From Bacilli bacterium (GTDB taxonomy: Bacteria; Bacillota_I; Bacilli_A; RF39; UBA660): a stretch of DNA of 43,480 nucleotides. Position 1 is the first letter of the stretch; every line of letters begins with the position of its first letter. Made by a program: the position numbers and the translations under genes. This document shows, one piece after another, positions 9,535-32,505 of the stretch. The stretch is from positions 1 to 43,480 of the forward strand of contig JAGAFD010000006.1 of NCBI GenBank assembly GCA_017612805.1, read 5' to 3'. The notes beneath the pieces are model-generated. The model was not told the DNA's origin. It did not search any database and saw nothing but the letters and a program-made list of their open reading frames with translations.

Positions 9535-9549
9535 AAAGAAGGAAAAGGG

Positions 9550-10359
9550 ATGCAAAATATTTTAAACGGTATTAAAAAGTTTTTGATGAACAAAAACACA
9601 GTAACAATTTTAGGGGTGTTAGCAGGTATTGCGGTACTTTATATTGGTTACAATTGGCGTGTAAAACAAGCAATTGATCCACAAAAAGTGCCATATGCTA
9701 AGGTTGAAATTTCTTCAAGAACATTAATCACTGAAGATATGGTTGGTTATACAACTGTTTCAGCAGAAATGTTAAAAAATAATCCAAACATTGTAAGAAA
9801 TAGTGGATTAATTGTAGGTAAATATGTTAGTTATGGAACAACTATTCCAGAAAACAGTTTATTCTATTCACAAAGTTTAATGACAGAAGACGAAATGCCT
9901 GATAGTGCATTTGCCGATATTCCTGATGATTATACAATTTATAGTTTAGCAGTAAACTTACATACTACTTACGGTAATAGTATTTTCCCAGGTAATTATA
10001 TCGACTTATATGTAAAATTAACTAATGATGAAGGCGATGTAGTATTTGGTAAATTAATTGAAAGTATTGAAGTACTTGCTGTAAAAGATTCACAAGGAAA
10101 TCATGTATTTGAAACCACTGTAGAATCTCGTCAACCAGCAGAACTTCTATTTGCTGTACCAAATGAAATGTATAGTTTATTAATGAAATCTGGATACATT
10201 GGATATGGACTAGAAATTATTCCGGTTCCAAGAAATGCATCTTATAGTGCAAATCCTGGTGAAACAATCGAATCAAGTGAATATATTAAAAACTTCATTT
10301 TATCTAAAACGGTTATTTTACCTGAAGAAACAAACACTAATTCAAAAACTACTAATTAA
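9550..10359 (+). CDS. cpaB: CpaB/RcpC-like Flp pilus assembly protein (SAF domain)
   Basis: The 269-residue protein has an N-terminal membrane anchor (about 17-35). A SAF-type domain follows with the typical pattern 'VPYAKVEISSRTLITEDMV' (about 48-66) and 'GLIVGKYVSYGTTIPENSLF' (about 92-111). A C-terminal beta-rich domain comes next. CpaB proteins sit at the outer face of the membrane and support Tad pilus assembly. In Gram-negative bacteria they work with the CpaC secretin, which is not expected or seen here. The gene lies directly upstream of the CpaF ATPase, the normal Tad order. The last residues are a short Asn/Thr-rich tail. Confidence 0.75.
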   Translation: MQNILNGIKKFLMNKNTVTILGVLAGIAVLYIGYNWRVKQAIDPQKVPYAKVEISSRTLITEDMVGYTTVSAEMLKNNPNIVRNSGLIVGKYVSYGTTIPENSLFYSQSLMTEDEMPDSAFADIPDDYTIYSLAVNLHTTYGNSIFPGNYIDLYVKLTNDEGDVVFGKLIESIEVLAVKDSQGNHVFETTVESRQPAELLFAVPNEMYSLLMKSGYIGYGLEIIPVPRNASYSANPGETIESSEYIKNFILSKTVILPEETNTNSKTTN

Positions 10360-10388
10360 GATATAAAGAATAAAAAGGACTGATAAAG

Positions 10389-11819
10389 ATGAATGACGCT
10401 ATATTTGATCAAATGGACTTTGGTCCGTTAAAAGAGTTTTTAGAAGAAGACGATATTACCGACGTATCATATAGTAACGGTGGTCAAATATGGCTAAAGA
10501 CTTTGTCAAAAGGTATTTATCAAGTTGAAAGACCTGATATTAATAATGAATTTATGGAAAAGCTTGCTTTCCAATGTTCTAACGTTATGGGTGTTACATT
10601 TAATATGGCGCATCCTTTTCTTGATGCTGAGAGTGCTGAATTACGTATGAACTTCGTTCACGATTCAATTGCTACCAATGGAATCGCTTGTGTAATTCGT
10701 AAAACTCCGGCAAAAATTAGATTAAATCGTGAAAAATTATTAAGTGAACAATATGTATCAGCACAATTACATGATTTCCTAGAACAATGTGTTAAAGGAA
10801 GAGCAAATATTATTGTTGCTGGTGAAACTGGTTCAGGTAAAACTGAGTTAGTTAAATATTTAGCAAGTAAGACTACTGAAAACGAAAAAATTATAACAAT
10901 TGAAGATACGCTAGAATTACACTTAGATAAGATATTTCCACATCGTGATATTGTAGCAATGAAAACTAATAATATTGCTTCTTATTCAGATGTATTAGTA
11001 ACATGTATGCGACAAAACCCAATTTGGATTTTGTTATCAGAAGTTCGTTCTGGTGAAGCAGTTATGGCAGTTCGTAACTCAATTTCATCAGGTCACCATA
11101 TTTTATCTACAATCCATGCTGATAAAGCGTCTTCAATTCCAATGCGTATGTATTCATTATTAGAAAGTAGTCAAGATATTGATCAATTCTTAGCAAGTAT
11201 TCACCGTTATGTACAAATTGGTATCTATGTAAAGGGTTATTATAGTGCTAGATTACAAAGATTCCAAAGAGAAATAATGGAAGTTTGTGAATTCTATGTT
11301 GATGAAGATAATAATGCTAAATCAAATATTATATATAAAAAGGATTTAAATGGACATGCAACATTAAGAAATCCTACGAAAAATTTAATTAGTTATTTAA
11401 GTATAGGTAATGTGTTCTTAGATGATGATGTATTTGGTCTAGGTGATAATGAGGAAAAAGAAGAAGACTTAAATGAGACTGCTACACAATACGCGGAACT
11501 TAATAAAGTTGAAGAAAAACCGGTTGAAGTAGCACCAGTAAGTGGCATTGTTCCAACTCCAGAAGTTGTTGCACCAGTTTCCAATCCAGTTCCTCCAATA
11601 ACTCCTAGTGTTACACCAGTTACACCGGTTGTACCAAGTGCTACACCAGTAGCACCAATACCACAACCTCAATTAGAACCAAAAGCAGAACCAATGCCAC
11701 AACCACAAACTGTGGTAATGCCAAGCTCAAATAACGATAATTCTTCTAGTGAACAAACAACTACAGGTAATCAGGGTGGTAGTGGTATTCCAATAACTGG
11801 AATAGGAAGTTTATTTTAG
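10389..11819 (+). CDS. cpaF: CpaF/TadA-type secretion ATPase with Pro-rich tail
   Basis: This 476-residue member of the VirB11/PilT superfamily has a Walker A at 145-152 (GETGSGKT) and an Asp-box region 'IITIEDTLEL'. A Walker B-like 'IWILLSEVRSGEA' and the His-box segment 'SSGHHILSTIHADKAS' follow. The N-terminal domain 'ELRMNFVHDSIATNGIACVIRKTP' matches the CpaF layout. It forms a cytoplasmic hexamer that powers pilin polymerisation. Oddly, about 90 C-terminal residues (from about 385) are low-complexity Pro/Val/Thr/Gln followed by Ser/Asn, absent from ordinary CpaF. They may bind other machine parts. TadB and TadC follow, confirming the Tad assignment over VirB11. Confidence 0.88.
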   Translation: MNDAIFDQMDFGPLKEFLEEDDITDVSYSNGGQIWLKTLSKGIYQVERPDINNEFMEKLAFQCSNVMGVTFNMAHPFLDAESAELRMNFVHDSIATNGIACVIRKTPAKIRLNREKLLSEQYVSAQLHDFLEQCVKGRANIIVAGETGSGKTELVKYLASKTTENEKIITIEDTLELHLDKIFPHRDIVAMKTNNIASYSDVLVTCMRQNPIWILLSEVRSGEAVMAVRNSISSGHHILSTIHADKASSIPMRMYSLLESSQDIDQFLASIHRYVQIGIYVKGYYSARLQRFQREIMEVCEFYVDEDNNAKSNIIYKKDLNGHATLRNPTKNLISYLSIGNVFLDDDVFGLGDNEEKEEDLNETATQYAELNKVEEKPVEVAPVSGIVPTPEVVAPVSNPVPPITPSVTPVTPVVPSATPVAPIPQPQLEPKAEPMPQPQTVVMPSSNNDNSSSEQTTTGNQGGSGIPITGIGSLF

Positions 11820-11834
11820 AAAAGAGGAATGAAT

Positions 11835-12731
11835 ATGATAGAGATAATATTATTGGTTATAATTGCTATTTATGTATATTCCTATCGAAAAAATAATGGC
11901 CAAAATGTATATAAGTTTGTCTCTGATGCAGTAGTTAAAGCTTATAATACATATGCACCATATAGTCTTAAAGAAGTTAGAGAAAAAGTTAAAGAATTAG
12001 GCCAAGAATATACGGCCAGACAATATTTAACTCAAGTATTATTGATTGGTGGATTTGCTGCCGTTGTTTCATACTTGTATTTCTTTAGTATTATATGGAC
12101 AATCATTTATGTATTAATTGCAATACTATTTATTCCATATCTTGCATTCTTAAGATGCAAAAGAGTATATAGCGAATATATTTTTGAACAAATTCAAACT
12201 TATACTACCAACGTTATTATGGAATTTAACACAACCCAATCATTTGTTAAATCGCTAGAAGGTGTTAGAGATTCAGGAATCTTAGAAGAACCAGTTGTTG
12301 GCGATGTTAAAACCATGATTGATATGGCTTATCAAAATGGTACGATTGATGAATCAATTAGTTTCTTTAATCAAAGATATCCATTCTATATGGTAAAAAA
12401 CATGCATCAACTATTCTTACAAATTACTAAAGAAGGTGCTAAGGATTCTGGTGAATCATTAGAAAACATGTCAATGGATATCGATGCCTTAGTTGAAGGT
12501 GTATATCGTGATAAAATGGACCGTCAAGAATTCCATAAGAAATTCTTAACGTTTGGTTGTATGCTATTCTTATTAGTAATGGCAATGCAATTACTATTAG
12601 GTAATGATGCCTATTTAAATATGTTAAAACTATGGTACGTACAACTTCTTCTACATGCCATAATTATTGTTAACTGCTACTTCTTATTAAGTGGTGAAAA
12701 ATATTACAATGAAGATGTGGGGGTTGAATAG
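11835..12731 (+). CDS. tadB: TadB-like inner-membrane platform protein (T2SSF)
   Basis: The protein has about 298 residues. AAAGAGG at 11821-11827 favours the ATG at 11835 over the one at 11829. It has a membrane helix at the very N-terminus, a pair near residues 65-110 and another pair at the C-terminus. Between them lies a cytoplasmic helical domain with the T2SSF signature region (FVKSLEGVRDSG, ISFFNQRYPF, DSGESLENMSMDIDAL). In Tad systems TadB and TadC form the platform that CpaF turns or pushes. It sits 10-16 bases after cpaF and 2 bases before tadC. Confidence 0.82.
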   Translation: MIEIILLVIIAIYVYSYRKNNGQNVYKFVSDAVVKAYNTYAPYSLKEVREKVKELGQEYTARQYLTQVLLIGGFAAVVSYLYFFSIIWTIIYVLIAILFIPYLAFLRCKRVYSEYIFEQIQTYTTNVIMEFNTTQSFVKSLEGVRDSGILEEPVVGDVKTMIDMAYQNGTIDESISFFNQRYPFYMVKNMHQLFLQITKEGAKDSGESLENMSMDIDALVEGVYRDKMDRQEFHKKFLTFGCMLFLLVMAMQLLLGNDAYLNMLKLWYVQLLLHAIIIVNCYFLLSGEKYYNEDVGVE

Positions 12732-12733
12732 TT

Positions 12734-13522
12734 ATGTCTTGGGAAATAGTTGTTATCGCGGCAATTGTAATCTTTGTATTAAATTATAGTGGTCGCATTA
12801 GTACTAATAGATTTGTTAAAGATAATTCAACATATTTATTAAAATTAAAAGAAAGTGATTATGACTTCTTTGTTCGTGCTAAATATGGTCAAGATGTTGA
12901 CCCAAATGTATTATTTGAAAAAAGAATTAAAAATGCATTTATAGTTATTGTATTGTTATTATTCTTCTTTATAACCAGTTTAAATTATGTAAAAGTAATC
13001 TTTGCATTAGCCGCTGGTTTTGGAATGTTTAAAATGCAATATCTAAGTTTAAAAAAATATTATAAGAATCACTTACACATCATTGATTCAATGTTACCAC
13101 ATTACTTAAAAGGTCTTGAAATTTTAATTCAACACTATACTGTTCCGGTAGCAATTGGTAAATCGATTGAAGATGCTCCAGAAATCTTTAAAGAAGGTTT
13201 AGGCGAAATGATTGATCGAATTAATGCTGGTGATTCATCAATTGAACCTTATATGGAATTTGCAAGAAAATATCCAGTAAGAGATTCAATGCGTATGATG
13301 CGTTTATTATATCGTTTAAGTTTAGGTAGACAAGAGCGTAAGCAAGAACAATTAATGATGTTTTCAAGAACCATTTCAAACTTACAACAAAAAGCTCGTG
13401 AAACAAGATATAAAAATCGTTTGGAAAAAATGGAAGGTAAAACAACCTCAATGTTGCTTGCTACTGGGCTTGGTTTAATGGTATTATTAATTGTTTCTGT
13501 AATGCAAATGATTCAAATGTAA
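12734..13522 (+). CDS. tadC: TadC-like inner-membrane platform protein (T2SSF)
   Basis: The 262-residue partner of TadB has an N-terminal helix, a helix pair near residues 73-105, a cytoplasmic helical domain and a C-terminal helix (about 240-258). The domain includes 'MLPHYLKGLEILIQHY' and 'RKQEQLMMFSRTISNLQQKARETRYKNRLEKM', a typical T2SSF lead-in. GGGGGTTG just upstream within the tadB end provides the ribosome-binding site. It is the last gene before an internal promoter, so the Tad core (cpaB-cpaF-tadB-tadC) forms one block. Confidence 0.82.
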   Translation: MSWEIVVIAAIVIFVLNYSGRISTNRFVKDNSTYLLKLKESDYDFFVRAKYGQDVDPNVLFEKRIKNAFIVIVLLLFFFITSLNYVKVIFALAAGFGMFKMQYLSLKKYYKNHLHIIDSMLPHYLKGLEILIQHYTVPVAIGKSIEDAPEIFKEGLGEMIDRINAGDSSIEPYMEFARKYPVRDSMRMMRLLYRLSLGRQERKQEQLMMFSRTISNLQQKARETRYKNRLEKMEGKTTSMLLATGLGLMVLLIVSVMQMIQM

Positions 13523-13538
13523 AGTTTCGATAAAATAA

Positions 13539-13567
13539 TTGATAATTAAAATAAAAAAGCTTATAAT
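13539..13567 (+). promoter_or_regulatory. Internal promoter for the small pilin genes
   Basis: TTGATA (13539-13544), a 17-base spacer and TATAAT (13562-13567) lie 33 bases before the start at 13600, and AAAGGAGG (13581-13588) follows. A separate strong promoter fits a structural protein needed in many copies. Confidence 0.75.
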
Positions 13568-13599
13568 AAAAGTATAAAATAAAGGAGGATTATAAATAT

Positions 13600-13806
13600 A
13601 TGAAAGAGGCAACTGGAGAATTAAATATGACTGTAATTACAGTAGTTGCTATTGCTGCTGTAGCTGCATTCTTCTATGCCATTGTATGGCCAGCTATTAA
13701 AGCTAGTATTGGTAAAAACACATGCGAAAATGGTGGCGGTACATGGAATGCTTCAGCTAAATGTTGTACAGAAGCAGGAGCAACAACTACTTGTACAGGT
13801 AGCTAA
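13600..13806 (+). CDS. Small pilin-like protein, candidate major subunit
   Basis: The 68-residue protein has an N-terminal MKEATGELN leader-like end, one long Ala/Val-rich helix (about 10-31) and a short Cys-containing tail (C, CC and C, probably disulfide-bonded). The size and helix are like Flp/Tad pilins. The short charged start ending in Gly6 could be a prepilin leader, but Glu lies at +1 rather than +5, so processing is uncertain and no prepilin peptidase is seen in this window. It has its own promoter and a strong Shine-Dalgarno site. The next gene is a paralogue. Confidence 0.75.
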   Translation: MKEATGELNMTVITVVAIAAVAAFFYAIVWPAIKASIGKNTCENGGGTWNASAKCCTEAGATTTCTGS

Positions 13807-13827
13807 TTAATAAAGAGGTAATAACAT

Positions 13828-14073
13828 ATGAGAGAAGCCACGGGAGAATTAAATATAACTGTTGTTGTTGTAACACTAGTTGCAGTTCTAGTGGCTTTTT
13901 TCTATGGAGTTATTTGGCCTAATGTAAAAGGTGGGCTATCTTATACGCAAAACTGTAATAATGTTGTATGTGATAGTAAAACTTATAATCGTGCTACTGG
14001 AAAAGTTAAATGTAAATATTACGATAATAAAGGTAATGCTGCTAAAGATATAGAATGTTCATGGAAAGGGTAG
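13828..14073 (+). CDS. Small pilin-like protein, paralogue of the preceding gene
   Basis: The 81-residue protein is nearly identical in plan to its neighbour. It starts MREATGELNITVV, has one helix (about 10-31, ending FFYGVIWP like FFYAIVWP in the other) and a short tail with four Cys and Lys-rich turns. The pair looks like a tandem duplication followed by divergence of the exposed tail. AAAGAGG precedes the start. It may be a second pilin type or a tip/minor subunit. Confidence 0.72.
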   Translation: MREATGELNITVVVVTLVAVLVAFFYGVIWPNVKGGLSYTQNCNNVVCDSKTYNRATGKVKCKYYDNKGNAAKDIECSWKG

Positions 14074-14079
14074 TAAACA

Positions 14080-14532
14080 ATGAAAGAAAGTATTGGAACT
14101 AGTTATTTATTTCAAATAGTTGTTGTTTTTGTCTTGCTATTTACAGGATATTTATGCCTTTCTATCAATTATGCTAGATCATTTGCAGTTAAAAATAACA
14201 TTGTTAATAACATTCAACGTGAAAAAGGCTTTAACGATATAACAAGAAAAAAAATATCTCGATATTTATCTGATGTTGGTTTTAAAAGTACCGGAAGATG
14301 TCCAGACGGATATAATGCATATAATGCTGATGGGACTTTACAAGGTGATGGTAAAACAGGCATTTACTGTGTAAAAAAAGTTATTACTGCACCATACCAA
14401 AAGGATATTCCGCAAGTATCTTATTATCGTGTTGTGGTTTTTTATAAGTTAGATTTACCAATTTTTAGTGCAGTATTTAGATTTAAAAATTTTGGTGACA
14501 CATATCTTATAGGAGATTTAAATCAAGGATAG
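14080..14532 (+). CDS. TadE/F-like minor pilin
   Basis: The 150-residue protein starts MKESIGTSYLFQ, has a membrane helix (about 10-30) and a TadE/F-like external domain. The domain shares several blocks with the next protein: 'TGRCPDGY', 'YCVKK', 'YYRVVVFYKLDLPIF' and a closing F/V-x-G-x-x-x-L/Y strand. Both have two Cys at equivalent places, probably a disulfide. It lies 6 bases after the second small pilin, in the same transcript. TadE/F proteins are thought to prime or cap pili; the role here is by analogy. Confidence 0.7.
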   Translation: MKESIGTSYLFQIVVVFVLLFTGYLCLSINYARSFAVKNNIVNNIQREKGFNDITRKKISRYLSDVGFKSTGRCPDGYNAYNADGTLQGDGKTGIYCVKKVITAPYQKDIPQVSYYRVVVFYKLDLPIFSAVFRFKNFGDTYLIGDLNQG

Positions 14533-14555
14533 AAATATAAAAAGGAGGAGTAATA

Positions 14556-15842
14556 ATGCGTGAGTCAATCGGTGGAACATGGACAATGCAAATTGTTATT
14601 GTTTTCATTTTATTTTTTGTTGCATTTATAACTTTAACCATTAACTATACAAGAGCATTTAAAGTTAAAAATGAGATAATAAGTATTATTGAACGTGAAG
14701 ATGGCTTTACGTGGAGTGCTCCTGATAATATTGATGATCCGGCTGGGGCTCGTGAACTTATTGCGGCTTATTTAAGAAACAATAAATATTCTGCAACTGG
14801 AAGATGCGACGAAGGCTGGGTTGGTGTTAAATCTATTGCTCAAAATGATGTTTCAGATAATAGTACGTATGTAAGTATCGATGAAGATACTAAATCACAA
14901 AAGTATTATTATTGTATTAAGAAAATTAATGTTCCTATTAAAGGAAGAGCTGACTATGAAGCGTATAATTATAAGAATCGTGCTTATTATAAAGTAAGAA
15001 TGTTCTTTAAGTTCAGCATTCCTATTTTTGGCGATTTAACTACCTTTAAAGTAGAAGGAGAAAGCTTGGAGGTTTATTTTAATCAAGACGGTTTAAAACT
15101 AAATCCAGATGAAGATTTTAAAGCGCCAGCAGCACAAGTTACAACATGTACTTCAGGATATACTTTAGTTAAAGGTGCATGTAAGGACGTTACTGCTCCG
15201 ACGGTACCAACACTTGAATTATTTAATCCAATTGTTAGTTCTTCTACAGCTAGTTATTGTTTAAGAATGTCTGATTCAGTTGATGAAGCTGATGGAAAAA
15301 CTGTATCACAAGTTACTTATGAAGTAAAAATTAATAATTATTGGAAAATTTGTTCTGGTGAAAGCAATTGCTGTTTTAATTTAGAAAATGCTAATACTAA
15401 TTATCAAATAACTGGTAGGGCATGTGATACATCAAATAACTGTTCATTTGCTAAAAGAACAATTCAAATGAATCCAAAACGTTTGTATATTTGGCAAGTT
15501 TACCAATATCTTCGTTCTAATAACGGTTCATCAATTATTGGTCAACCTTCAGAAGATGAAATAAGCAGCAATTTAGCTAGCAACAAAATGGCTGACAATG
15601 TTAAAGGTATGTATAGTTCAAAAGAATCATATGATTACTTTGGCCCAATGGGTGCTGAAGATGTTCTAATACATTATTATCGTGGTATTTTAGGCCGTAA
15701 TTACGATGATGCTGGTATGGCTGATAATATGAGAGCTTATAATATAGAAGGTAGAATAAATATGATTAAAACCTTTGTTAATTCAAAAGAAGCGCAAGAC
15801 TATATTTATGCTAAATGGGGTTTAGGTACAGGTACAGTTTAA
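14556..15842 (+). CDS. Minor pilin fused to an Ig-like and a DUF4214-like domain
   Basis: Of 428 residues, the first about 185 (MRESIGGTW, membrane helix about 10-31, 'TGRCDEGW', 'YYCIKKINVPI', 'FFKFSIPIFG') are paralogous to the preceding minor pilin. A short Cys-containing linker follows, then a beta-rich Ig/FnIII-like domain (about 212-305: 'TAPTVPTLELFNP', 'CDTSNNCSFAKRTI'). The C-terminal helical domain (about 310-428) has 'YYRGILGRNYDDAGM', the hallmark of DUF4214 modules found in bacterial surface and matrix proteins. The fusion suggests a tip adhesin displayed on the fibre. GGAGG precedes the start. Confidence 0.75.
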   Translation: MRESIGGTWTMQIVIVFILFFVAFITLTINYTRAFKVKNEIISIIEREDGFTWSAPDNIDDPAGARELIAAYLRNNKYSATGRCDEGWVGVKSIAQNDVSDNSTYVSIDEDTKSQKYYYCIKKINVPIKGRADYEAYNYKNRAYYKVRMFFKFSIPIFGDLTTFKVEGESLEVYFNQDGLKLNPDEDFKAPAAQVTTCTSGYTLVKGACKDVTAPTVPTLELFNPIVSSSTASYCLRMSDSVDEADGKTVSQVTYEVKINNYWKICSGESNCCFNLENANTNYQITGRACDTSNNCSFAKRTIQMNPKRLYIWQVYQYLRSNNGSSIIGQPSEDEISSNLASNKMADNVKGMYSSKESYDYFGPMGAEDVLIHYYRGILGRNYDDAGMADNMRAYNIEGRINMIKTFVNSKEAQDYIYAKWGLGTGTV

Positions 15843-15876
15843 TTAATATTACAAGAATAAAAGAGGGTGTAATTAA

Positions 15877-16917
15877 ATGAATGTAGTGGTTTCTAATAAA
15901 TATCAATCCCTATTATTAGGCTTAGATATTGATATTATTAAAAATCTTAATGGTGAATTTAGCGTTGATGATTTAGTAGCTAATTTTACTAACTATTATT
16001 TTAATAAAATGGTTATCGATGTTACAGCTTTAAAAGACTATCAACAATTAAGTACTTATCAACAATTATCACTAGAAATGGATATGTCTAAAATAATTTT
16101 ATTATTAGATGATTCAGAAGCTTTAAATGAACCAATGTTCATTTCTGGTTTAATAAGCATGGGTATTTATAATTTTACACGTAATATTGAATCAGTTAAA
16201 TTTTTAATTGATAATCCAAATAGTTATAAAGATGTTGCTCAATTCCATCAAATTAATCCTGTTATTCCAACTCCACAAGCAACTAGTGATTCAAATAATA
16301 AAGAAATTGTATATGTTGATCGTGTTGTTGAATCAGGAACTCGTAATACTAGAGTAATTGGTGTTAAGAACTTAACGGAAGGTGCTGGTTCTACAACATT
16401 AGCTTATTTAATGGTTAAAGCTTTAGATAAACATTATAGCGTTTGTGGCTTAGAAATTAATACTCGTGATTTTGCTTACTTCAATGATAAACGTCTTGAT
16501 TGTATAAGTGATGTTGCACTACAATCTACTATTTCTAAAAATAGTGATAAAGATGTAATAGTTGTTGATTTAAGTAGTTCAACAGAATTAGAAAAACAAT
16601 GTAGTGAAGTTATATATTTAATTGAACCAGGTATTGTTAAATTAAATAAATTAATCAGAAAGAACAAAACTGTCTTTCAAAAACTTAAAAATGATAAAAT
16701 TATTCTTAATAAGAGTACTTTATCAAGTCATGATGTTAATGACTTTGAATTTGAATCAGGTGTTCACATTACCTTTAATATTCCTTACTTAGATGATCGT
16801 AAGGATAACAATAAAATAATTGAAGATTTCTTAGTAACTTTAGGGTTCGGAAGATTTAATGGATCTAGTGGTGGATCATCTAAATTATTTAACTTTTTTG
16901 GTAAAAAAGATAACTAA
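15877..16917 (+). CDS. CpaE/TadZ-like protein with degenerate P-loop
   Basis: The 346-residue cytoplasmic protein has an N-terminal part of about 125 residues resembling a receiver-like fold, then a MinD/ParA-like domain beginning about residue 155. The nucleotide site reads 'TEGAGSTTLAY' (about 167-177), where CpaE/MinD proteins have KGGxGKTT. The P-loop Lys is missing, and the deviant-Walker Lys is absent too. 'VIVVDLSSS' takes the place of the Walker B strand. TadZ proteins place Tad machines at the cell pole and some have atypical ATP sites, so the role may survive without hydrolysis. Last gene of the Tad half. Confidence 0.68.
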   Translation: MNVVVSNKYQSLLLGLDIDIIKNLNGEFSVDDLVANFTNYYFNKMVIDVTALKDYQQLSTYQQLSLEMDMSKIILLLDDSEALNEPMFISGLISMGIYNFTRNIESVKFLIDNPNSYKDVAQFHQINPVIPTPQATSDSNNKEIVYVDRVVESGTRNTRVIGVKNLTEGAGSTTLAYLMVKALDKHYSVCGLEINTRDFAYFNDKRLDCISDVALQSTISKNSDKDVIVVDLSSSTELEKQCSEVIYLIEPGIVKLNKLIRKNKTVFQKLKNDKIILNKSTLSSHDVNDFEFESGVHITFNIPYLDDRKDNNKIIEDFLVTLGFGRFNGSSGGSSKLFNFFGKKDN

Positions 16918-16946: not shown

Positions 16947-16975
16947 TTGACAATTACAGTGATTTTATTTAAAAT
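16947..16975 (+). promoter_or_regulatory. Promoter for the VirB2-like gene at 17002
   Basis: TTGACA (16947-16952), a 17-base spacer and TAAAAT (16970-16975) are followed by AAGAGG as ribosome-binding site. This starts the type IV secretion half of the locus. Confidence 0.72.
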
Positions 16976-17001: not shown

Positions 17002-17385
17002 ATGTATTTATTAGACGCTAGTACATTTTGTGCTGACACTGCTAACGTATGGCAAGTAATCGGATGGGTATTAACAGTATTTAAGATTGTTATTCCTCTA
17101 TTATTAATCATTTTTGGTATGATTGATATCGGTAAAGCTGTTACAAGTAGTAAAGAAGATGAAATTAAAAAAGCAACAGGTGCTTTAATGAGAAGAGCAA
17201 TTGCTGCTGTAGTAGTATTCTTTATTCCTACATTAGTTGGTGTAATCATGAGTTTAGTTAAAAATGCTCCAGATTATAAACCTTGTCGTAAATGTATTAC
17301 TAATCCAGGTGGAACTTATTGTAAAGACGCTGCTAATTTAATTTGGAACGACGATGACGATACTTCTACAGTTAGTAGTAATTAA
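17002..17385 (+). CDS. VirB2-like T4SS pilin (two-helix protein)
   Basis: The 127-residue protein has two membrane helices (about 14-40 and 62-88) joined by a short basic loop 'SSKEDEIKKATGALMRRA'. A Cys-containing tail (CRKC...C) follows. This is the layout of VirB2/TrbC-like pilins of Gram-positive type IV secretion systems. There is no cleavable signal of normal length. The same two-helix module, with K-E/D-E and R-x-A-I/A-A-A motifs and 'FIPTLVGVIMSLV'-like second helix, forms the C-terminal end of the next two proteins. It has its own promoter and terminator. Confidence 0.75.
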   Translation: MYLLDASTFCADTANVWQVIGWVLTVFKIVIPLLLIIFGMIDIGKAVTSSKEDEIKKATGALMRRAIAAVVVFFIPTLVGVIMSLVKNAPDYKPCRKCITNPGGTYCKDAANLIWNDDDDTSTVSSN

Positions 17386-17400
17386 TAGTATTTACGTAAA

Positions 17401-17444
17401 AACAATTCATTTGAATTGTTTTTTTTATGCCACTTTGTTATAAT
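17401..17444 (+). promoter_or_regulatory. Terminator-promoter module, copy 1
   Basis: AACAATTCA / TGAATTGTT forms a perfect 9-bp stem (17401-17409, 17412-17420) with a T-run. The same bases give TTGTTT (17416-17421), exactly 17 bases before TATAAT (17439-17444). So the terminator of one gene supplies the -35 box of the next. A second copy lies at 18835-18879. Confidence 0.78.
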
Positions 17445-17467
17445 TTAGTTGGAGAGTGAATTAACTT

Positions 17468-18826
17468 ATGAAAAAAGTAATTATCAGTATTTTATTAACC
17501 ATATTTATGATATTACCAATGAGTATTAAAGCTGATTTAAAATGTAATTATCCGGTTGCGTTTTCTAATGGCGATTTAAACTTAGGTAATATTAAAATTG
17601 AAAATAAGGGCGGAAAGTATTACATCAATGATAAACAAATCAAAAATAAAAGTGAAAATGGTTCTGGAGACATTAATTTAGGGAATTTAAATGGAACTGA
17701 TTTTGTATTTAAATCAACTATTTTATATAATGCTTCAGCTGATTTTTCTAGTCATAAGAATTATGATGTAGTGAAAAGTTTATTTAATGGAAGCACTTGT
17801 CCAAGTCTTAATTTTTATTACGAATACAATAATGAAAAATTAAAAGCTAAACCATCAGTACTTGAGTATTCCGTACTTATATTAACAAATGATGAAATAG
17901 CTAATACCAAAGCACCTTTGACAGAAAACTATAATTTATTAAAAGTTACTCCGATAAATCTTAGTAGTAGCGATAAGGATAGTGGAATTAAAGAAATTGC
18001 TTTTTCAATAACTGATTTAAATATAACCACTGGGTTGCCAGATAAGAATTCTTATATTCAAAAGATTACATATACTAAAAATACTAATATGTTGTCTATT
18101 CAATTAAAACAATCATCATTTGGAGATAAGACAGTTTATTTATTAGGCATCCATGATAAATCGCAAACTGTTGACTTCGTTAGTGCTAAGACATTTTATA
18201 TGATGGGAAATCCGCAAGCGGTATTACGTGCAAGATTTAACATATATGAAGATTTAAAGGATTATTTACAAAATAATAATACTTTAGTTGTTGCCTTTAG
18301 AGGATATGATTCTATTGAAAATAAGTTTGATTTTGATATCATGAAACGTGATTCTTTAGATAATTATCTTGATAACTATGTTGCTGATACCGATGAACAA
18401 ACGCGTATTAAAGAAGAGGCTGACCGTCAAATTAAGGACTCGTTAAATCGTATCCAACGTATGGAAACTTCATCAATCGCATTTTGTGCTTCGACTTCTG
18501 GAGTATTAAAAGTGTTTAAATTGGTAGGTTATGCAATTATTATTATTCGTATTTTAGTTCCTATCGCTTTAATTATTTATGGATCAATTGAGATGTTTAA
18601 GGTAGTTATGAGTGGTAAAGAAGAAGCAATGAGCACTGCAATATCTAATTTATTTAAAAAATTCATTGCTGCTTTAATAATATTTATAGTACCTACAGTT
18701 GTTAATTTTGCTGTTAGTTTAGTTGGCAATGCAATTCAAAAAAATGATGATTATTTCAAGAATTGTAACACGTGTATCTTCAACCCAGATAAGTGTCCAA
18801 TTAAAGATTCAACATCTGAAGAATAA
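17468..18826 (+). CDS. Exported protein with C-terminal VirB2-like two-helix domain (paralogue 2)
   Basis: The 452-residue protein has a signal peptide (cleavage near 'SIKADL', residue 22), a large ectodomain (about 23-320) of unknown fold and a short amphipathic stretch. At the C-terminus is the two-helix module also seen at 17002 and 18931. Helices lie at about 348-376 and 398-421, joined by 'MSGKEEAMSTAISNLFKKF' and followed by a Cys-containing tail (C-x-x-C...C). A pilin-like membrane unit carrying a 300-residue external domain is unusual and could decorate or gate the channel. GGAGAG precedes the start; it has its own promoter. Confidence 0.75.
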   Translation: MKKVIISILLTIFMILPMSIKADLKCNYPVAFSNGDLNLGNIKIENKGGKYYINDKQIKNKSENGSGDINLGNLNGTDFVFKSTILYNASADFSSHKNYDVVKSLFNGSTCPSLNFYYEYNNEKLKAKPSVLEYSVLILTNDEIANTKAPLTENYNLLKVTPINLSSSDKDSGIKEIAFSITDLNITTGLPDKNSYIQKITYTKNTNMLSIQLKQSSFGDKTVYLLGIHDKSQTVDFVSAKTFYMMGNPQAVLRARFNIYEDLKDYLQNNNTLVVAFRGYDSIENKFDFDIMKRDSLDNYLDNYVADTDEQTRIKEEADRQIKDSLNRIQRMETSSIAFCASTSGVLKVFKLVGYAIIIIRILVPIALIIYGSIEMFKVVMSGKEEAMSTAISNLFKKFIAALIIFIVPTVVNFAVSLVGNAIQKNDDYFKNCNTCIFNPDKCPIKDSTSEE

Positions 18827-18834
18827 TCGCTAAA

Positions 18835-18879
18835 AACAATTCATTTTGAATTGTTTTTTTTATGTAGTTTTGTTATAAT
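18835..18879 (+). promoter_or_regulatory. Terminator-promoter module, copy 2
   Basis: AACAATTCA / TGAATTGTT (18835-18843, 18847-18855), a T-run, TTGTTT (18851-18856), a 17-base spacer and TATAAT (18874-18879). Apart from one loop base and a few spacer bases it repeats the module at 17401-17444. Confidence 0.78.
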
Positions 18880-18930
18880 GAGAATAGGTTATCGTGTGTA
18901 TAACAATTTTAATATGAAATGTGTGATTAT

Positions 18931-19770
18931 ATGAAAATTATTAAATTTTTATTTGTATTTATTTGTGCCTTATTTTTAGGCTTTATAACGGTATCAGCGT
19001 GTACTTCTGACGATTGTTGTACTGGTTGTAGTTATTATCAAGCTGAAACATCATGCAAAGCTGCTATGACGCAAGCTCAAAAAGATAAGTGCAGTGGCAA
19101 GTCTTCAAACAGCAGTAGTTGTAATGTTGATAGTTGTTGTAGTAATTGTGCTACTGAAACAATGGCAAGTTCATGCAGACAATCAATGACTTCTGCCCAA
19201 AAAAACAAATGTAATGGTGGAAATAGTTCCAATAATGGTAGTAATGGCGGCGGAAGTTCAAATAATGGTGGAGGAAGTAGCATTACTCCAGAAATAAGCA
19301 GTGAATGTGATGATCAACTTAAAGAAACATGTGAAACTCAAAGTGATCCGGTGCAATCATTAAAAGATAAATGTAATGAATGCGGGTTCCCATTAAAAAC
19401 CTATAATAATGGAAATGGAACTCAAGACGGAACCCTTTATACTGATGATGATACTGGAATTACTAAACTAACTGGTTGCGAAAATGTATTTGGTGAATTA
19501 AAAGATGGTAAGTTTGATAAAGATTCATTAGGATATTTTTTACAAGTAGCATTTAATGTAGTTAAGTATATTGTACCAGTACTTTTAATAGTCCTAACAT
19601 CAGTAGATTATTTAAAAGCAATATCTAGTGGTGACAAAGAAAATGTTAATAAGGCAACTACTAAATTAACTAAACGAGCAATTATTGCTCTTGCAATATT
19701 CTTGGTTCCAACAATTTTGAATTTTATATTAAAAATAGTTGCTGAATATGGAACATGTGGAATTAAATAA
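18931..19770 (+). CDS. Cys-rich exported protein with C-terminal VirB2-like domain (paralogue 3)
   Basis: I chose the ATG at 18931 (MKIIKFLF) because GTGTGAT precedes it; an in-frame ATG lies 12 bases earlier. The about 279-residue product has a signal peptide, then two tandem Cys-rich repeats of about 40 residues (C-x-x-D-x-C-C-x-x-C pattern, each ending in 'KCxG'). A Ser/Asn/Gly linker and a small Cys domain follow. The C-terminal two-helix VirB2-like module (about 210-270) has the loop 'SGDKENVNKATTKLTKRA' and a tail ending CGIK. It is read together with the VirB6-like gene 30 bases downstream. Confidence 0.72.
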   Translation: MKIIKFLFVFICALFLGFITVSACTSDDCCTGCSYYQAETSCKAAMTQAQKDKCSGKSSNSSSCNVDSCCSNCATETMASSCRQSMTSAQKNKCNGGNSSNNGSNGGGSSNNGGGSSITPEISSECDDQLKETCETQSDPVQSLKDKCNECGFPLKTYNNGNGTQDGTLYTDDDTGITKLTGCENVFGELKDGKFDKDSLGYFLQVAFNVVKYIVPVLLIVLTSVDYLKAISSGDKENVNKATTKLTKRAIIALAIFLVPTILNFILKIVAEYGTCGIK

Positions 19771-19799: not shown

Positions 19800-22631
19800 A
19801 TGATTAATATTATGGATTCATGGTATATGACTTCTACTTTTGGCGAAGTTATAAAGTTTTTATTATTTATTGACTCAATTATTTATTGGTTAATTGCAAG
19901 ATGTTTTTCTTTTATAATTGACGTTGCTGCAACTGACTTTCTATTAACTGATTTAGTAAATCAAATTATCAACCGTACATATATTATTGTCGGTGTTTTT
20001 GCTTTATTTTTAGTATCATATGCATTAATTAAAGGATTATTTGATCCTGATAGTGCTTTTAAAGGTAAGAATTCTGTTACTGCAACAGTGAAGAATTTGC
20101 TTCTTGCAATTGTTTTAGTTGCTTTAATGCCAACAATATTTCAATATATGTACCGTTTTCAATCAATTGTTGTAAACAACAATATTATTGGTTCAATAGT
20201 TATGGGTAATGATGCCGCAATCACGGTTCATTATGATGATCCAGAAAGTGATGGATATATTACTGATGAAATAACTATCGAAGATATCGGCTATGAAAAC
20301 TATATTAAATTAGCAGGGAATAAAGTTGCTTTTACGGCTTTAAATTCATTTTTATATACTGATGATGAATTCCAAGATTTAAAATTAGAAGCTGGTGAAG
20401 TAATTGGAACATGGATATCTCCTAAAACATCACAATTTGGGATTGCTTTAAATATTAAATCAAGAATTGGAATGATTATTTCTCAACTTGGTGAGAAAAC
20501 ATTCAATGATGTTAGAAATAGAGCTACCTTGAATGGTGATTTCTTATCCGTTAACGGATTAGCCTACGTTTTATCAACTGGTTTCAATAAAGATTCTGAA
20601 CATCAAGTTGCATATTTCCCATTGGTTTCAACCCTATGTGGAATAGTAATGTTGGTATTAATCGTCGGATTCTGTGTAAATATTGTTATTCGTGTATTTA
20701 ATTTATTCTTACTAGAATTAATATCACCAATTGCATCTTTCTCATTAATTATTCCTAATAGTAAGGTATTTGATAATTGGTTCAAAGAAGTATTAAAAGA
20801 GTATTTAGATGTATTCATTAGATTGGCAACCTTTAACTTAATGTTGTTATTCTTTACAAATTATAATGCCATTGTCGGGAATGTTGCTTCAGTAGCAAGT
20901 TCATCATTCCAAATCTTAAATATTTTCTTTATTATTGGTTTATTAATATTCATTAATGAAGCACCAAAAATAATGAAAGACATATTTGGAATTAAAGAAA
21001 GCAAAAAAATCAAAGATCGTTTATTTACTGGTGCAGTTGCATCTACGTTGGGTGCAGCCGCTGGTTTTGCTGGTGGATTAGTTGCTGGTGGTGTAAATGT
21101 TGGACGTGCTTTAGGTGATAAAACACCTGATTTAAAACCAACTTCAAGAGCATGGAATGTTTTAAATGGTGCTGGTTCAGGATTTGTTTCAGGCAGTAAA
21201 GCTGGTAGCAAAGCTAAAAACTTTGGCGATCTTAGAGGAGCAATTGCAAAGAATGTGTCTGAGGCTGATGCAAGACGTACTAAAGGTAATTTATATCGTT
21301 TCCAACATGGTAATACTATTGCTGGTGTTATAGGTGGCTTAAGAGACGATGCTGTTAATTATGTAACTAATGGGGATCCATTCACAAGATATAAAGATTA
21401 TGAAGCACAACAAGGTAAAGTTAATGATATTAAAAAGGATATTGATTCAATTTACGACTTAGCCGATAAAGGTGCTGCTGTTTCTGCTAAAAAATCAGAT
21501 TTTGAAACTCATAAATCTTCTTTATTAAGTAGAGACGATTTCTTGCATAATACTAGAGATACATATAAAGCTAATATGGAACAAAGACGTAAAGAATTTG
21601 AGCAAATGACGCGCCCTGAAAGAGCTAGTTATTCTACAGATGCTGACTATACTGCTGCATATCAAGCGTGGTGGAATAAAAAGCAAGAAGTTGATACTGC
21701 TGAAGCTGCATATAATAACATCTTGAACGATGTAGGATTCCAAGATAAGGAATATCGTGAATACATGCGTAAGTTTGAAGCTAAAGCTCAAAAACTTGAA
21801 ACTGATTATAAAACTGAAAGACTTAATTGGATTAATAAACAAGCTGCTGATCAAGGATCAGAGGTTCACTACAAATACAACAAAATTAAGAGTGATCTTG
21901 CTAAACAAGTTCAACTTAACAATCGATTTACTGCTGGCATAAATGTTGATAATTATGAATCAGACAATACACATACTTTTACCGATTCAACTGGTGCTAC
22001 AAGTAGTGTAATAGATGTAAATCAAGTTTTATCTGATATTAAAGATGATATTTTTGGTAAGAGCGAAATTTACAATAGTAAAGTTCAATTAGATAAAGAC
22101 TTTGGATCACTTAAAGGTATCGACTTTAGTACCAAAGTATTTAATGAAGCCAGTGATTTTGCAATTCCTTTAAGCACAAAGACTACCAAGATATGGAATT
22201 CTACTGAAGGAAAATATGACATAAATACTTTTGGTGGATATGAAACAGCCATTGTTGATTTAATTGCAAGTAAAAAAGGTTTGAGCAAAGAAGCCGCGAA
22301 AGCATTTAAGAAGAAATTTAAAGAAGATAATGCTGCTGCATTAACTCAATTTGCTAAAGACGCTGTAGAATATTATAATGCTCGTGCTGCAGATGATATG
22401 GCTGCTGCAACAAGTGCTCAAGCTAATTGGAATAACTTCTTTACTGCAACAGCAGTTAATCCAGCAGATGTCACAATGCCTGAGTTAATGAAAGAGTTAT
22501 TAAAGGTTAATGCTGGTACTTCTAGACCAGCTTCTAATGGTAATGTACAAAAAGTTCATAATACTGAAGATTATCGAAATGCCTTTGAACAAGCTCAAAA
22601 AGCTTATGAACAACAAAAAGATGGTAAATAA
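19800..22631 (+). CDS. VirB6/TrbL-like polytopic T4SS channel protein with long cytoplasmic tail
   Basis: The 943-residue protein has about six or seven membrane helices. Two lie near 15-45, others near 58-80 and 95-118, and a cluster from about 275 to 390 includes 'LVLIVGFCVNIVIRVFNLFLLELISPIAS', typical of VirB6/TrbL. A Gly/Ala-rich segment (about 410-435) follows, then some 500 mainly helical, charged residues with coiled-coil character. The extended tail is far longer than the classic VirB6 (about 300 residues) but is known in Gram-positive versions. Strong Shine-Dalgarno AAGGAAGGTGG. It probably forms the membrane channel core with the VirB3- and VirB4-like proteins that follow. Confidence 0.75.
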   Translation: MINIMDSWYMTSTFGEVIKFLLFIDSIIYWLIARCFSFIIDVAATDFLLTDLVNQIINRTYIIVGVFALFLVSYALIKGLFDPDSAFKGKNSVTATVKNLLLAIVLVALMPTIFQYMYRFQSIVVNNNIIGSIVMGNDAAITVHYDDPESDGYITDEITIEDIGYENYIKLAGNKVAFTALNSFLYTDDEFQDLKLEAGEVIGTWISPKTSQFGIALNIKSRIGMIISQLGEKTFNDVRNRATLNGDFLSVNGLAYVLSTGFNKDSEHQVAYFPLVSTLCGIVMLVLIVGFCVNIVIRVFNLFLLELISPIASFSLIIPNSKVFDNWFKEVLKEYLDVFIRLATFNLMLLFFTNYNAIVGNVASVASSSFQILNIFFIIGLLIFINEAPKIMKDIFGIKESKKIKDRLFTGAVASTLGAAAGFAGGLVAGGVNVGRALGDKTPDLKPTSRAWNVLNGAGSGFVSGSKAGSKAKNFGDLRGAIAKNVSEADARRTKGNLYRFQHGNTIAGVIGGLRDDAVNYVTNGDPFTRYKDYEAQQGKVNDIKKDIDSIYDLADKGAAVSAKKSDFETHKSSLLSRDDFLHNTRDTYKANMEQRRKEFEQMTRPERASYSTDADYTAAYQAWWNKKQEVDTAEAAYNNILNDVGFQDKEYREYMRKFEAKAQKLETDYKTERLNWINKQAADQGSEVHYKYNKIKSDLAKQVQLNNRFTAGINVDNYESDNTHTFTDSTGATSSVIDVNQVLSDIKDDIFGKSEIYNSKVQLDKDFGSLKGIDFSTKVFNEASDFAIPLSTKTTKIWNSTEGKYDINTFGGYETAIVDLIASKKGLSKEAAKAFKKKFKEDNAAALTQFAKDAVEYYNARAADDMAAATSAQANWNNFFTATAVNPADVTMPELMKELLKVNAGTSRPASNGNVQKVHNTEDYRNAFEQAQKAYEQQKDGK

Positions 22632-22655: not shown

Positions 22656-22970
22656 ATGAATAATAGATATTTGATACCAGCCAATTCCAAAAAATCAATG
22701 TTAATCTTAGGATATTTTACAACATTTGATATAATAATGTTTGGTATTGGTTGCGTAACAACTATGACATTACTGGTTATCGTTAATACATCAAAAATAA
22801 CCACAATATTATTAATATTATTACCGGCTTTAATAACAGGAATGTTAGTAATGCCGATTCCTAATTATCATAATGTATTAACATTAATTAAGAATGTATA
22901 TAACTTCTTCTCGGGTCGAAGAAGATATTATTGGAGAGGTTGGTGTGTAAAAGATGAAACCAAAGATTGA
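22656..22970 (+). CDS. VirB3/PrgI-like small membrane protein
   Basis: The 104-residue protein has two adjacent membrane helices (about 21-45 and 48-67) and a basic C-terminal end 'GRRRYYWRGWCVKDE'. This layout, and the position directly before VirB4, are those of the VirB3/PrgI family, which docks the ATPase to the membrane. The start is set by GGGTGAT. It stops at TGA and overlaps the next gene by 17 bases, suggesting coupled translation. Confidence 0.75.
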   Translation: MNNRYLIPANSKKSMLILGYFTTFDIIMFGIGCVTTMTLLVIVNTSKITTILLILLPALITGMLVMPIPNYHNVLTLIKNVYNFFSGRRRYYWRGWCVKDETKD

Positions 22971-23508
22971 GACATCAAAATATAGTGAAGATTGGTTACC
23001 AGTTAAACAAATATTAAATGGTATGATTCAATTAGATGATGGATATTATGTAACAGGAGTTAAAGTATCTCCTAAGAATATCTTTATTATGGATGAACAA
23101 TATCAAGATAACGTAATCTTCTCATTAAGAAATTTATATAATACCATTGATTTCGAATTCTGGATGGTTATTGCCGATCGCCCAGTAGATATTAGTGTTT
23201 ATTTATCAAGTCTACAAATCCTTTATTCTCGTAGTAATGATGCAGTTCAAAGAAAACTAATTCAACAAGATATTAACAAAGCTAATATGTTTAGAAGTCA
23301 AGAATATAACGTAGTTGATACAGAATATTATATTTTATTTAAAGAAAAGAAAATGGAAGTTATTCAAAAGAAACTTCATAATATCTTAAGTGGTTTAGTA
23401 AATTGTGGTTTAAATAGCCAACAAGTTTCTAATAATGATTTAAGAATGTTATTAGACAATTTCTTTAATGCTGGTAAACCAACTACATTTGGGACGGTGA
23501 CAGCATGA
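22954..23508 (+). CDS. virB4: VirB4 N-terminal domain as a separate protein
   Basis: The 184-residue protein matches the N-terminal part of VirB4/TraC-type ATPases ('YSEDWLPVKQILNGMIQLDDGYYVTGVKVSPKN', shown here only as a pattern of an entry beta sheet; then a central helical part). It contains no ATP site. It ends at TGA overlapping the start of the VirB4 ATPase gene as ATGA. In most systems both parts are one chain of about 750-800 residues; here the combined length is about 779. The split is clean, with a start codon for part two, so two coupled proteins are more likely than an error. Confidence 0.75.
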   Translation: MKPKIETSKYSEDWLPVKQILNGMIQLDDGYYVTGVKVSPKNIFIMDEQYQDNVIFSLRNLYNTIDFEFWMVIADRPVDISVYLSSLQILYSRSNDAVQRKLIQQDINKANMFRSQEYNVVDTEYYILFKEKKMEVIQKKLHNILSGLVNCGLNSQQVSNNDLRMLLDNFFNAGKPTTFGTVTA

Positions 23509-25292
23509 GTATATTTAAGAGTGAAGTTGCTCCTAAGGGAATGCAATTTAATGTTACCGATTTTATGATAAGTGGTAAACATGCAACTATTCTAACAGTT
23601 GTAAGTTTTCCTAAAGACATCTATCCTGGTTATTTATCTAATGTAACTAGTGTAAATGGTGTTAAAGTTGTTATTAAACATATTCCGATTGATTTTAATA
23701 TCATGAAGAAAATGTTAAATAAAGAGATTGCTGATTTAAAGCAACGTTATCAAACTGAACGTGATCGTACAACTCAAGAACGTATTCGTCAAGATTATGA
23801 ATCATTAGAACAATTTGTATCAATGCTTGCAGCAACTCAAACAAGAATTTTTGATTTTCAAATGCATTTATTAGTTATGGCTGATAGTGCTGAAGAACTT
23901 GAAATGAAAAAGATGCAAGTTAGAACTTTCTTGGATGCAATGGGAATGCGTGCAATTCCATTAATGTTTGAACAAGAAAAAGTGTTAAAATCAATGATGC
24001 CTATCTTCCCACGTCAAGACGTAGAAGATCGTGTTGGAACACCAATTCCTGCATTAACTATTGCTGCAATGTATCCATTCGTATTTGATAGTATTAAAGA
24101 CCCAGGAGATTCACTATTATTTGGGGTTGATTTCTCTGGTGGTGTGGTTTTATTCAACCAATTCTTATATCAAATTAAGAAAGAACATAACCGAAATAAT
24201 GCCAACATGATTATGTTAGGTACTTCTGGTTCTGGTAAATCTACTGCTGAAAAAATGTTAATAAGAAGCCATATTAGAAACGGCTATAAGGTAGTAGCAA
24301 TTGACCCAGAAGGTGAATTAGCAGATATGACTAAGAACCTAAAAGGTGATTTCCTTGATTTAGGTAAGGGTGGCGATTATGGTATGATCAACCCTCTAGA
24401 AATTGTTATTGATGCTGATGAACAAGAAATAGCTGAAGGGTTAGGTTATACAATTTTAACTAGAACCTTACAAAGTTTAAAAGCATTTATGAAATATTAT
24501 TCACCAGATATTGAAGAAGATGTATTAACAATGTTTAGTGAAGTAGTTCAAGATACTTATAAACGTTATAAAATTGATTTTGATAGTGATTTTTCTAAAT
24601 TTAGTTCTGCTGATTATCCGACTTTTGATGATGTTTATGCAACTATCAAAGGAAGATTATTATCAATGAATGATAAAACTCATGAACGTGATGTTATGGA
24701 ACGTTTAGAGTTAAAAGTAAGACCTTTAGTAAAAGAATTAAGATATTATTTTACAGGTAAAACAACATTAAATATTAATTCTAACTTTATTGTATTTAAT
24801 ATTCGTGAATTAATGAATAGTGATGAAAATATTCGTAATGCCTTATTCTTCAATATTTTGAAGTATGCATGGGGCTTATGTTTAGATAGTAGTATTAATA
24901 CAGTAATGTGTGTTGATGAAGCTCACGTATTACTATCTGGTAAAAATGAATTAGGTGCTGAGTTCTTAGCACAAATTCAAAGACGTAGTCGTAAATATAA
25001 CACTGGTACTATTATTATTACTCAACAACCAACTGACTTTGCTGATTCAAAAATTATTATGCATGGAAAAGCAATCTTTGATAATGCCTCTTATTACTTA
25101 GTAATGGGCTTAAAGAAACAAGCAGTTGAAGATTTAGCAAAATTAATTGATTTAAATGAAAGAGAAATGGATAGTATTAAATATTATAATCAAGGTGAAG
25201 CATTATTTGTATGTGGTAGTCGAAGAATGCGTGTTAACGTTGTTGTTAGCCAAGAAGAACTAGACACATTTGGTGCTGGTGGAGGATTATAA
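23505..25292 (+). CDS. virB4: VirB4 ATPase, C-terminal part
   Basis: The 595-residue protein begins with the second half of the VirB4 N-terminal region, including a long helical hairpin (about 64-110). Then comes the motor domain. Walker A is GTSGSGKST at about 239-247, a 'VAIDPEGELADM' strand follows, Walker B 'MCVDEAHVLL' lies at about 467-476, and 'TGTIIITQQPTDF' supplies the sensor motif. VirB4 powers substrate transfer and pilus assembly at the inner face of the membrane. All catalytic motifs are intact. It starts inside the stop of the previous gene (ATGA). Confidence 0.9.
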   Translation: MSIFKSEVAPKGMQFNVTDFMISGKHATILTVVSFPKDIYPGYLSNVTSVNGVKVVIKHIPIDFNIMKKMLNKEIADLKQRYQTERDRTTQERIRQDYESLEQFVSMLAATQTRIFDFQMHLLVMADSAEELEMKKMQVRTFLDAMGMRAIPLMFEQEKVLKSMMPIFPRQDVEDRVGTPIPALTIAAMYPFVFDSIKDPGDSLLFGVDFSGGVVLFNQFLYQIKKEHNRNNANMIMLGTSGSGKSTAEKMLIRSHIRNGYKVVAIDPEGELADMTKNLKGDFLDLGKGGDYGMINPLEIVIDADEQEIAEGLGYTILTRTLQSLKAFMKYYSPDIEEDVLTMFSEVVQDTYKRYKIDFDSDFSKFSSADYPTFDDVYATIKGRLLSMNDKTHERDVMERLELKVRPLVKELRYYFTGKTTLNINSNFIVFNIRELMNSDENIRNALFFNILKYAWGLCLDSSINTVMCVDEAHVLLSGKNELGAEFLAQIQRRSRKYNTGTIIITQQPTDFADSKIIMHGKAIFDNASYYLVMGLKKQAVEDLAKLIDLNEREMDSIKYYNQGEALFVCGSRRMRVNVVVSQEELDTFGAGGGL

Positions 25293-25319
25293 TAGTTAAC
25301 TAGAAGTGGGGTGATTAGC

Positions 25320-27515: not shown

Positions 27516-27535
27516 TAAATTTGAAAGGGAATAAT

Positions 27536-32453: not shown

Positions 32454-32505
32454 ACGGTAATAAGATATAATGAATATATAGTAGAAAATAGGATAGGTGA
32501 TTACT

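Follow-up and report, generated by a model that had tools for sequence, protein, structure and literature searches.

According to a 2025 review, VirB2 pilins are absent from the type IV secretion systems (T4SSs) of Gram-positive bacteria except in Patescibacteria (PMC12857230), where a T4SS and its pilin array have been reported as essential for epibiotic growth (PMC12857230 and PMC12102498). For R388, VirB6 has been modeled as a platform to which VirB2 is recruited (PMC12624023). The locus described here belongs to the uncultured order RF39 of the Bacilli, most species of which are predicted to have a peptidoglycan wall but to be without some steps of precursor synthesis (PMC10868615). The window, i.e., the whole 43,480-nucleotide stretch analyzed (contig JAGAFD010000006.1 of assembly GCA_017612805.1, Bacilli bacterium, family UBA660), contains three tandem open reading frames (ORFs) on the plus strand, designated A (17002-17385), B (17468-18826) and C (18919-19770), which encode VirB2-like proteins with different outside domains. 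The explanation that we prefer, at a probability of about 0.6, is that they form the pilin array of a chromosomal T4SS (VirB3, VirB4, VirB6, VirD4 and a cell-wall enzyme, with no relaxase recognized among the scanned ORFs of the window) located beside a Tad-like cluster, in which a VirB2-type chassis built on VirB6 carries exchangeable domains outside the cell.

A Common Hairpin Module in Three Tandem Proteins

It had been proposed from the DNA alone that one two-helix module occurs in this region by itself in a plain unit of 127 residues, behind an ectodomain of about 300 residues, and after two Cys-rich repeats, and all three forms were recovered. Pilin A (127 aa) is the plain unit, with the module at approximately residues 15-86 and a Cys-containing tail; it was assigned by its Pfam match, its hairpin model and its position after a tadZ-like gene. 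Pilin B (452 aa), assigned by alignment and a hidden Markov model (HMM), has a signal-like N-terminus, a head measured at ~340 residues, the module at approximately residues 348-420 (18509..18727, plus strand, HMM coordinates) and a Cys tail. Pilin C (283 aa), assigned by the same two means and by its slot before virB6, has a signal-like N-terminus, a head with the two Cys-rich repeats, the module at approximately residues 204-274 (19528..19740, plus strand, HMM coordinates) and a short tail ending in CGIK; its true start is probably the second ATG, at 18931.

The module spans ~70 residues and consists of a helix, a short charged loop and a second helix which, as predicted, bears [IV]PT[LIV] in all three proteins (IPTL, VPTV and VPTI in A, B and C, respectively). 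Of the loop signature proposed earlier, the R/K-x-A/F-I part holds before helix 2 (RRAI, KKFI, KRAI), whereas the K-E/D-E part is looser than written (KEDE, KEEA, DKEN). Smith-Waterman scores of 170 (A-B), 131 (A-C) and 136 (B-C) compare with maxima of 63 for plain shuffles and 89 for those keeping the hydrophobic pattern (2,000 of each); by this measure the similarity of the three modules is far above chance, and the idea of a shared module is confirmed.

Pilin A matched the Pfam family T4SS_pilin (PF18895) with an E-value of 1.3e-7 and 32.1 bits, above the cut-off of 26.6. B was counted with the family of A because direct alignment joins the two. The AlphaFold model of A is a hairpin of two helices (residues 6-49 and 52-88; mean predicted local distance difference test score 81). 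Fold searches with this model returned generic helical hairpins only and were uninformative. Among unrelated families, only those of the G-protein-coupled receptor (GPCR) type matched the modules (7tm_1 with an E-value of 3e-4, Frizzled, and rhodopsin chains with an E-value of 0.05), all of them under their cut-offs; they were rejected as chance and read as a generic two-helix resemblance.

Lysine plus arginine account for a fraction of 0.219 of the loop residues and 0.065 of those in its flanks, a signal-like N-terminus is present in 116 of 121 decorated units, and 207 of 211 tails contain cysteine. Because of the loop charge, the signal-like N-termini and the wall-cutting heads of relatives (see below), the loop is predicted to be cytoplasmic and both termini would lie outside, a topology to which several independent lines point; the earlier view that the heads are external is supported by the same observations. 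The features of a VirB2 pilin found here are the PF18895 match (by A), the predicted hairpin with a cytoplasmic loop, and co-encoding with VirB4, VirB6 and a weakly assigned VirB3.

A Pilin-Like Hairpin in VirB6

The gene that follows C encodes a VirB6/TrbL-like protein of 943 aa (19800..22631, plus strand; Pfam TrbL_4, PF19597, E-value 2.9e-10, above cut-off), the model of which has R388 TrwI/VirB6 (Z 10.4) and Legionella DotA (Z 10.1) as its best solved relatives, the next unrelated chain scoring 7.3. Its N-terminal hairpin (residues ~50-126; 19947..20177, plus strand) resembles the pilin module. With hhalign, the pilin profile aligned to approximately residues 74-122 of VirB6, covering the loop and the second helix with its PT, at P 3.6e-5, whereas P was 0.011 or worse for eleven control segments, both as they stand and reversed; with other alignments the P-value was 3.8e-4. 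The matching stretch contains two helices in the VirB6 model (50-81 and 93-126). T4SS_pilin was the commonest Pfam match among 64 VirB6 N-termini (16 of 64), and a scan of this genome also gave a PF18895 match inside VirB6 (C6:19944-20147, E-value 0.007). Among NCBIfam models, two of VirB6 type matched the pilins most often, aligned at model positions 54-121. On this moderate evidence, the N-terminal hairpin of VirB6 is likely to be homologous to the pilin module; it is graded as likely because the aligned stretch covers only 42 columns.

Distribution and Array Structure in Related Genomes

The VirB4 of this locus was detected, usually as one copy, in 122 of 145 family genomes (65-81% identity); across the order it is present in 215 of 241. 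A profile of the small pilin found members in 36 of 38 family genomes versus 0 of 258 other Bacilli genomes. Judged from these genomes, the locus belongs to the core gene content of this uncultured Bacilli order. The proposed tandem family, in which some VirB2-like units are plain and others decorated, is well supported and holds throughout the lineage.

Among the relatives fetched, complete intervals between tadZ and virB6 contain 2-9 module genes, with heads ranging from almost nothing to ~530 residues. A tree of the modules has three positional classes: A (after tadZ), middle, and C (just before virB6). The A class has a Cys-rich tail of 20-46 residues and is kept in nearly every locus in which the tadZ side is visible, and the C class has a tail of mostly 7-13 residues, typically with CGI near its end; the slot before virB6 is occupied in 64 loci. 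In many relatives, a membrane protein of ~370 residues is encoded between A and B (e.g., L018 3405-4544 and L027 3680-4795), which is absent from the window; it was considered as a fourth pilin and rejected, being a different membrane protein without the module.

Modules are also dispersed at a great distance from the T4SS in two genomes, G057 (L118, L120-L126) and G038 (L127, L129, L130), mostly with large C-terminal domains. In one of them (G038, L127 2866-5682, minus strand) the module is flanked by a domain on either side, and the protein's end looks CHAP/NlpC-like by eye with no Pfam match. In L120 of G057, a second VirB6-like gene lies next to one for a decorated pilin.

Turnover of Heads and Enzyme Domains in Relatives

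At the C slot (slot -1), 1242 of 1262 and 391 of 394 pairs of modules were alignable (98-99%). The heads of the same slot were alignable in 0 of 140, 1 of 632 (78-85% VirB4 identity) and 63 of 285 pairs (85-95%), in identity bins rising from 72 to 95%. Other genes of the locus stay alignable, in a comparison biased by the fact that those genes were picked by their similarity to the window. By these counts the hairpin is kept while the head is exchanged.

A Pfam scan of 120 decorated pilins detected Amidase_3 (10), NlpC/P60 (8), C39 (6) and M15, i.e., D-Ala-D-Ala carboxypeptidase (2), as well as a VgrG3-like C-terminal domain in 2 of the 120. The number of proteins with hydrolase heads is about 20, fewer than the summed matches because two proteins are known to carry two domains, the scan itself giving no overlaps. 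The best single-protein matches were M15 (E-value 3.8e-24), Amidase_3 (2.4e-13) and NlpC/P60 (2.2e-10), and six NlpC heads retain the DCS and NHxGI motifs. The hydrolase heads that could be placed belong to the short-tail class near VirB6. In the window itself, the heads of B and C matched no family. The head of B has a sub-threshold OmpL47-like stretch (E-value 0.07), which only hints at an Ig-like fold; among the matches listed in family genomes, only its residues 1-92 were recovered, in the same genus. The downstream genes of relatives were too divergent for the occurrence of hydrolase heads to be compared with that of the separate SpoIID enzyme. The original prediction as a whole is partly supported, and it did not include the hydrolase heads of relatives, the turnover of heads or the resemblance to the N-terminal hairpin of VirB6.

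Neighboring T4SS and Tad-Like Genes

Downstream of virB6, all on the plus strand, lie genes for a VirB3/TcpE-like small membrane protein (22656..22970; assigned by position and weak matches to TcpE, E-value 0.037, and to the VirB4_plasma N-terminus, 0.042), a VirB4 encoded by two ORFs (N-terminal part, 22954..23508, NF045975 positions 101-277, E-value 4e-15; ATPase part, 23505..25292, NF045975, E-value 2e-101), a SpoIID plus NlpC/P60-like cell-wall enzyme that is a putative VirB1 analogue (25311..27515; SpoIID_LytB, E-value 6.8e-18, with a C-terminal DCTGFV motif found by reading), a lipoprotein with a C-terminal membrane helix (27521..28210; read from the translation, no Pfam match, present in many relatives) and the VirD4 coupling ATPase (28268..30484; Pfam E-value 1.6e-55, NF045973 above cut-off). 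Past these genes, a 674-residue protein (32497-34521) has no clear Pfam family. An integrative and conjugative element (ICE) was rejected as the identity of the locus because it is conserved throughout the lineage, usually once per genome, and because no relaxase was recognized among the scanned ORFs. By contrast, two ICE-like systems occur elsewhere in this 1.05-Mb genome (G000), on contigs C10 (locus L009) and C3 (locus L010): both are ordinary T4SSs of the conjugative type, with relaxase-like genes and one small pilin-like protein each.

Upstream, the Tad-like cluster (9094..16917, plus strand) comprises DUF5411, a CpaB/RcpC-like protein, a TadA ATPase, TadB/TadC-like proteins, two tiny pilins, two pseudopilin-like proteins and a TadZ-like protein. 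Pfam recognized DUF5411, T2SSE (TadA, E-value 1.7e-28) and, just under its cut-off, RcpC (2.4e-6); a TadA ATPase, a CpaB-like protein and membrane partners (TadB, TadC and TadZ by position only) are the features of a Tad- or type IV pilus-like system found here. The names TadB, TadC, TadZ, tiny pilins and pseudopilins are putative and were given from position and translation. TadA is present in 119 of 145 family genomes. Of the 52 genomes with both TadA and virB4 on one contig, 49 have them no more than 20 kb apart (median distance 10.3 kb). Just 5' of the cluster, a secreted Cys-rich protein of 1,391 residues (4901-9076) has no Pfam match and contains FCIDPG, which to us recalls thioester-type adhesins, a presumed likeness.

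Pilin A lies directly 3' of the tadZ-like gene in the window and in relatives. The gap between C and virB6 is 29 bases, similar in relatives, and C is presumably co-transcribed with virB6. A 35-bp direct repeat, comprising a terminator-like hairpin and the promoter-like TTGTTATAAT, brackets B: its first copy follows A (17410..17444, plus strand) and its second, 89% identical, follows B (18845..18879, plus strand), the two being the only copies in the genome. Recombination between the two copies could delete the B cassette or replace it; a cassette-flanking repeat was not found lineage-wide, and of the loci compared only that of B gave a strong case. A further promoter-like site precedes A (16947..16975, plus strand; TTGACA-17-TAAAAT, 11/12 of the consensus). 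Separate transcription of A and B, and hence differing amounts, is plausible; promoter-like sites in the region are no more numerous than in shuffles.

Proposed Function and Alternative Explanations

Read directly from the sequences are a VirB2-like hairpin in three positional classes, variable heads, hydrolase heads in relatives, a T4SS neighborhood and order-wide conservation, to which we add, by inference, the polymerization of the pilins. In the proposed mechanism, the pilins would enter the membrane so that the loop faces the cytoplasm and the two ends face outward, be recruited to VirB6 and assemble into a short stalk or fiber, for which the VirB6 hairpin could serve as a seed. Plain A units would make up the bulk, decorated B and C units would show adhesive or enzymatic heads, and C, next to virB6, may be the base or the VirB6-bound unit. 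Hydrolase heads might open the cell wall locally, in a VirB1-like manner, or act on the contacted cell. Instead of plasmid conjugation, the system may serve contact with other cells (adhesion, or the uptake or secretion of molecules), as in the epibiotic Patescibacteria; this role is favored because of the analogy with the T4SS of that group. More tentative is the broader idea that VirB2-type pilins serve as a general display chassis, i.e., a Gram-positive T4SS stalk with exchangeable domains, including hydrolases cutting the cell's own or its neighbor's wall, seeded by the hairpin copy built into VirB6.

Several observations weigh against the preferred explanation. C matched PF18895 under the cut-off (E-value 7.8e-4, 19.9 bits) and B alone gave no match at E<=1; Foldseek with the model of A found no known T4SS pilin (best E-value 6.5), a bare hairpin being a poor query; VirB5- and VirB8-like parts were not recognized at the locus; and the B and C heads of the window matched no enzyme family. 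In addition, genome G057 has at least 14 modules over many contigs, mostly far from the T4SS and with mostly C-terminal domains, and with modules lying far from virB4 in some genomes, not every unit need belong to this T4SS. These dispersed modules would suit a display platform instead of a pilus, in which non-polymerizing two-helix anchors hold adhesins and hydrolases around the VirB6 channel. Heads of up to ~530 residues also seem bulky for a helical fiber, and the review finds neither VirB2 nor VirB5 in Gram-positive T4SSs outside Patescibacteria (PMC12857230). We consider such a platform doubtful, given that near-bare A units kept in nearly every locus with a visible tadZ side are hard to explain for a pure anchor, and given the T4SS_pilin match and the resemblance to the VirB6 hairpin.

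The fast turnover of heads at a fixed slot may also be seen as antigenic or host-range variation, in which paralogous pilins give an otherwise ordinary T4SS pilus a changing surface, as has been proposed for Bartonella Trw and Patescibacteria; published parallels are the variable Trw pilins (PMC12857230) and arrays of 2-11 pilins (PMC12102498). This is a possible contribution, compatible with the preferred explanation rather than exclusive of it, but whole domains including enzymes are exchanged here, not points of a small pilin, and the A unit is conserved. Less probable is a split in which A-class pilins work for the Tad-like pilus and the T4SS has only C, perhaps with B. A does lie directly after tadZ, and in genomes with separated clusters, such as G106 and G020, TadA is accompanied by small pilins and virB4 by other modules; but the module matches T4SS pilins and not Tad/Flp pilins, A, B and C have one module, and the clusters are linked in most single-contig cases. 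In the separated cases themselves (L137, i.e., G106 contig C17, and G020 contig C15), the small pilins near the Tad genes are of the A class. Finally, convergent hydrophobic hairpins without common origin are very improbable: the sub-cut-off GPCR matches do show that two-helix patterns draw spurious hits, but the observed scores of 131-170 exceed the maximum of the pattern-keeping shuffles, and ~99% of slot -1 modules are alignable across the lineage.

If the preferred explanation is correct, VirB2-type pilins would belong to the core equipment of a large gut lineage of uncultured Bacilli, contrary to the review (PMC12857230), and pilin-hydrolase fusions would link VirB1 and VirB2 functions. 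A further, testable suggestion is that these bacteria, with their reduced genomes, make contact with other cells as epibiotic Patescibacteria do.

Comparison with Known Systems

The closest VirB4 match (E-value 2e-101) is to the Mycoplasma ICE genes (Mbov_0395, pilin-like, Mbov_0396 and Mbov_0397); VirB6 matches Mbov_0396/MMCAP2_0566, and the pilins weakly match the same models. The present locus differs from them in being a core chromosomal locus with no relaxase recognized, three or more pilins, and heads. Bartonella Trw also has tandem variable pilin paralogues (copies of its VirB2 and VirB5) with a proposed host-contact role (PMC12857230), but these are small pilins in a Gram-negative envelope, whereas here whole domains change. 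The hydrolase heads recall the VirB1-type enzymes of Gram-positive T4SSs (PrgK, TraG of pIP501 and TrsG), with the same expected local opening of the wall; in contrast to those, relatives fuse the enzyme to a pilin hairpin, while the window keeps a separate SpoIID/NlpC-like protein. R388 TrwI/VirB6, proposed as the VirB2 platform (PMC12624023), is similar in fold, as noted above, and the VirB6 of the window is much longer; its pilin-like hairpin bears on the question of how VirB6 seeds VirB2.

The literature searched, mostly outside subscription journals, yielded no Bacilli lineage with a general pilin array whose heads are exchangeable and often enzymatic, and nothing relevant on RF39 with Tad or T4SS. 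The arrays of Patescibacteria, compared by description from the accessible part of the source (PMC12102498), are alike in having PF18895-type pilins, 2-11 per array, next to VirB4/VirB6, in being chromosomal and mostly without relaxase, in their reduced genomes, and in VirD4 and cell-wall enzymes. A VirB2 array with a relaxase-less chromosomal T4SS is common to both, a likeness of gene content and presumably of working. The present locus differs from that description by its occurrence in Bacilli, its large exchangeable heads including peptidoglycan hydrolases, its linkage to a Tad-like cluster and its VirD4 near VirB4. VirB2-like arrays as such are already known in Patescibacteria, and what appears to be new here is the Bacilli host together with the exchangeable, often enzymatic heads.

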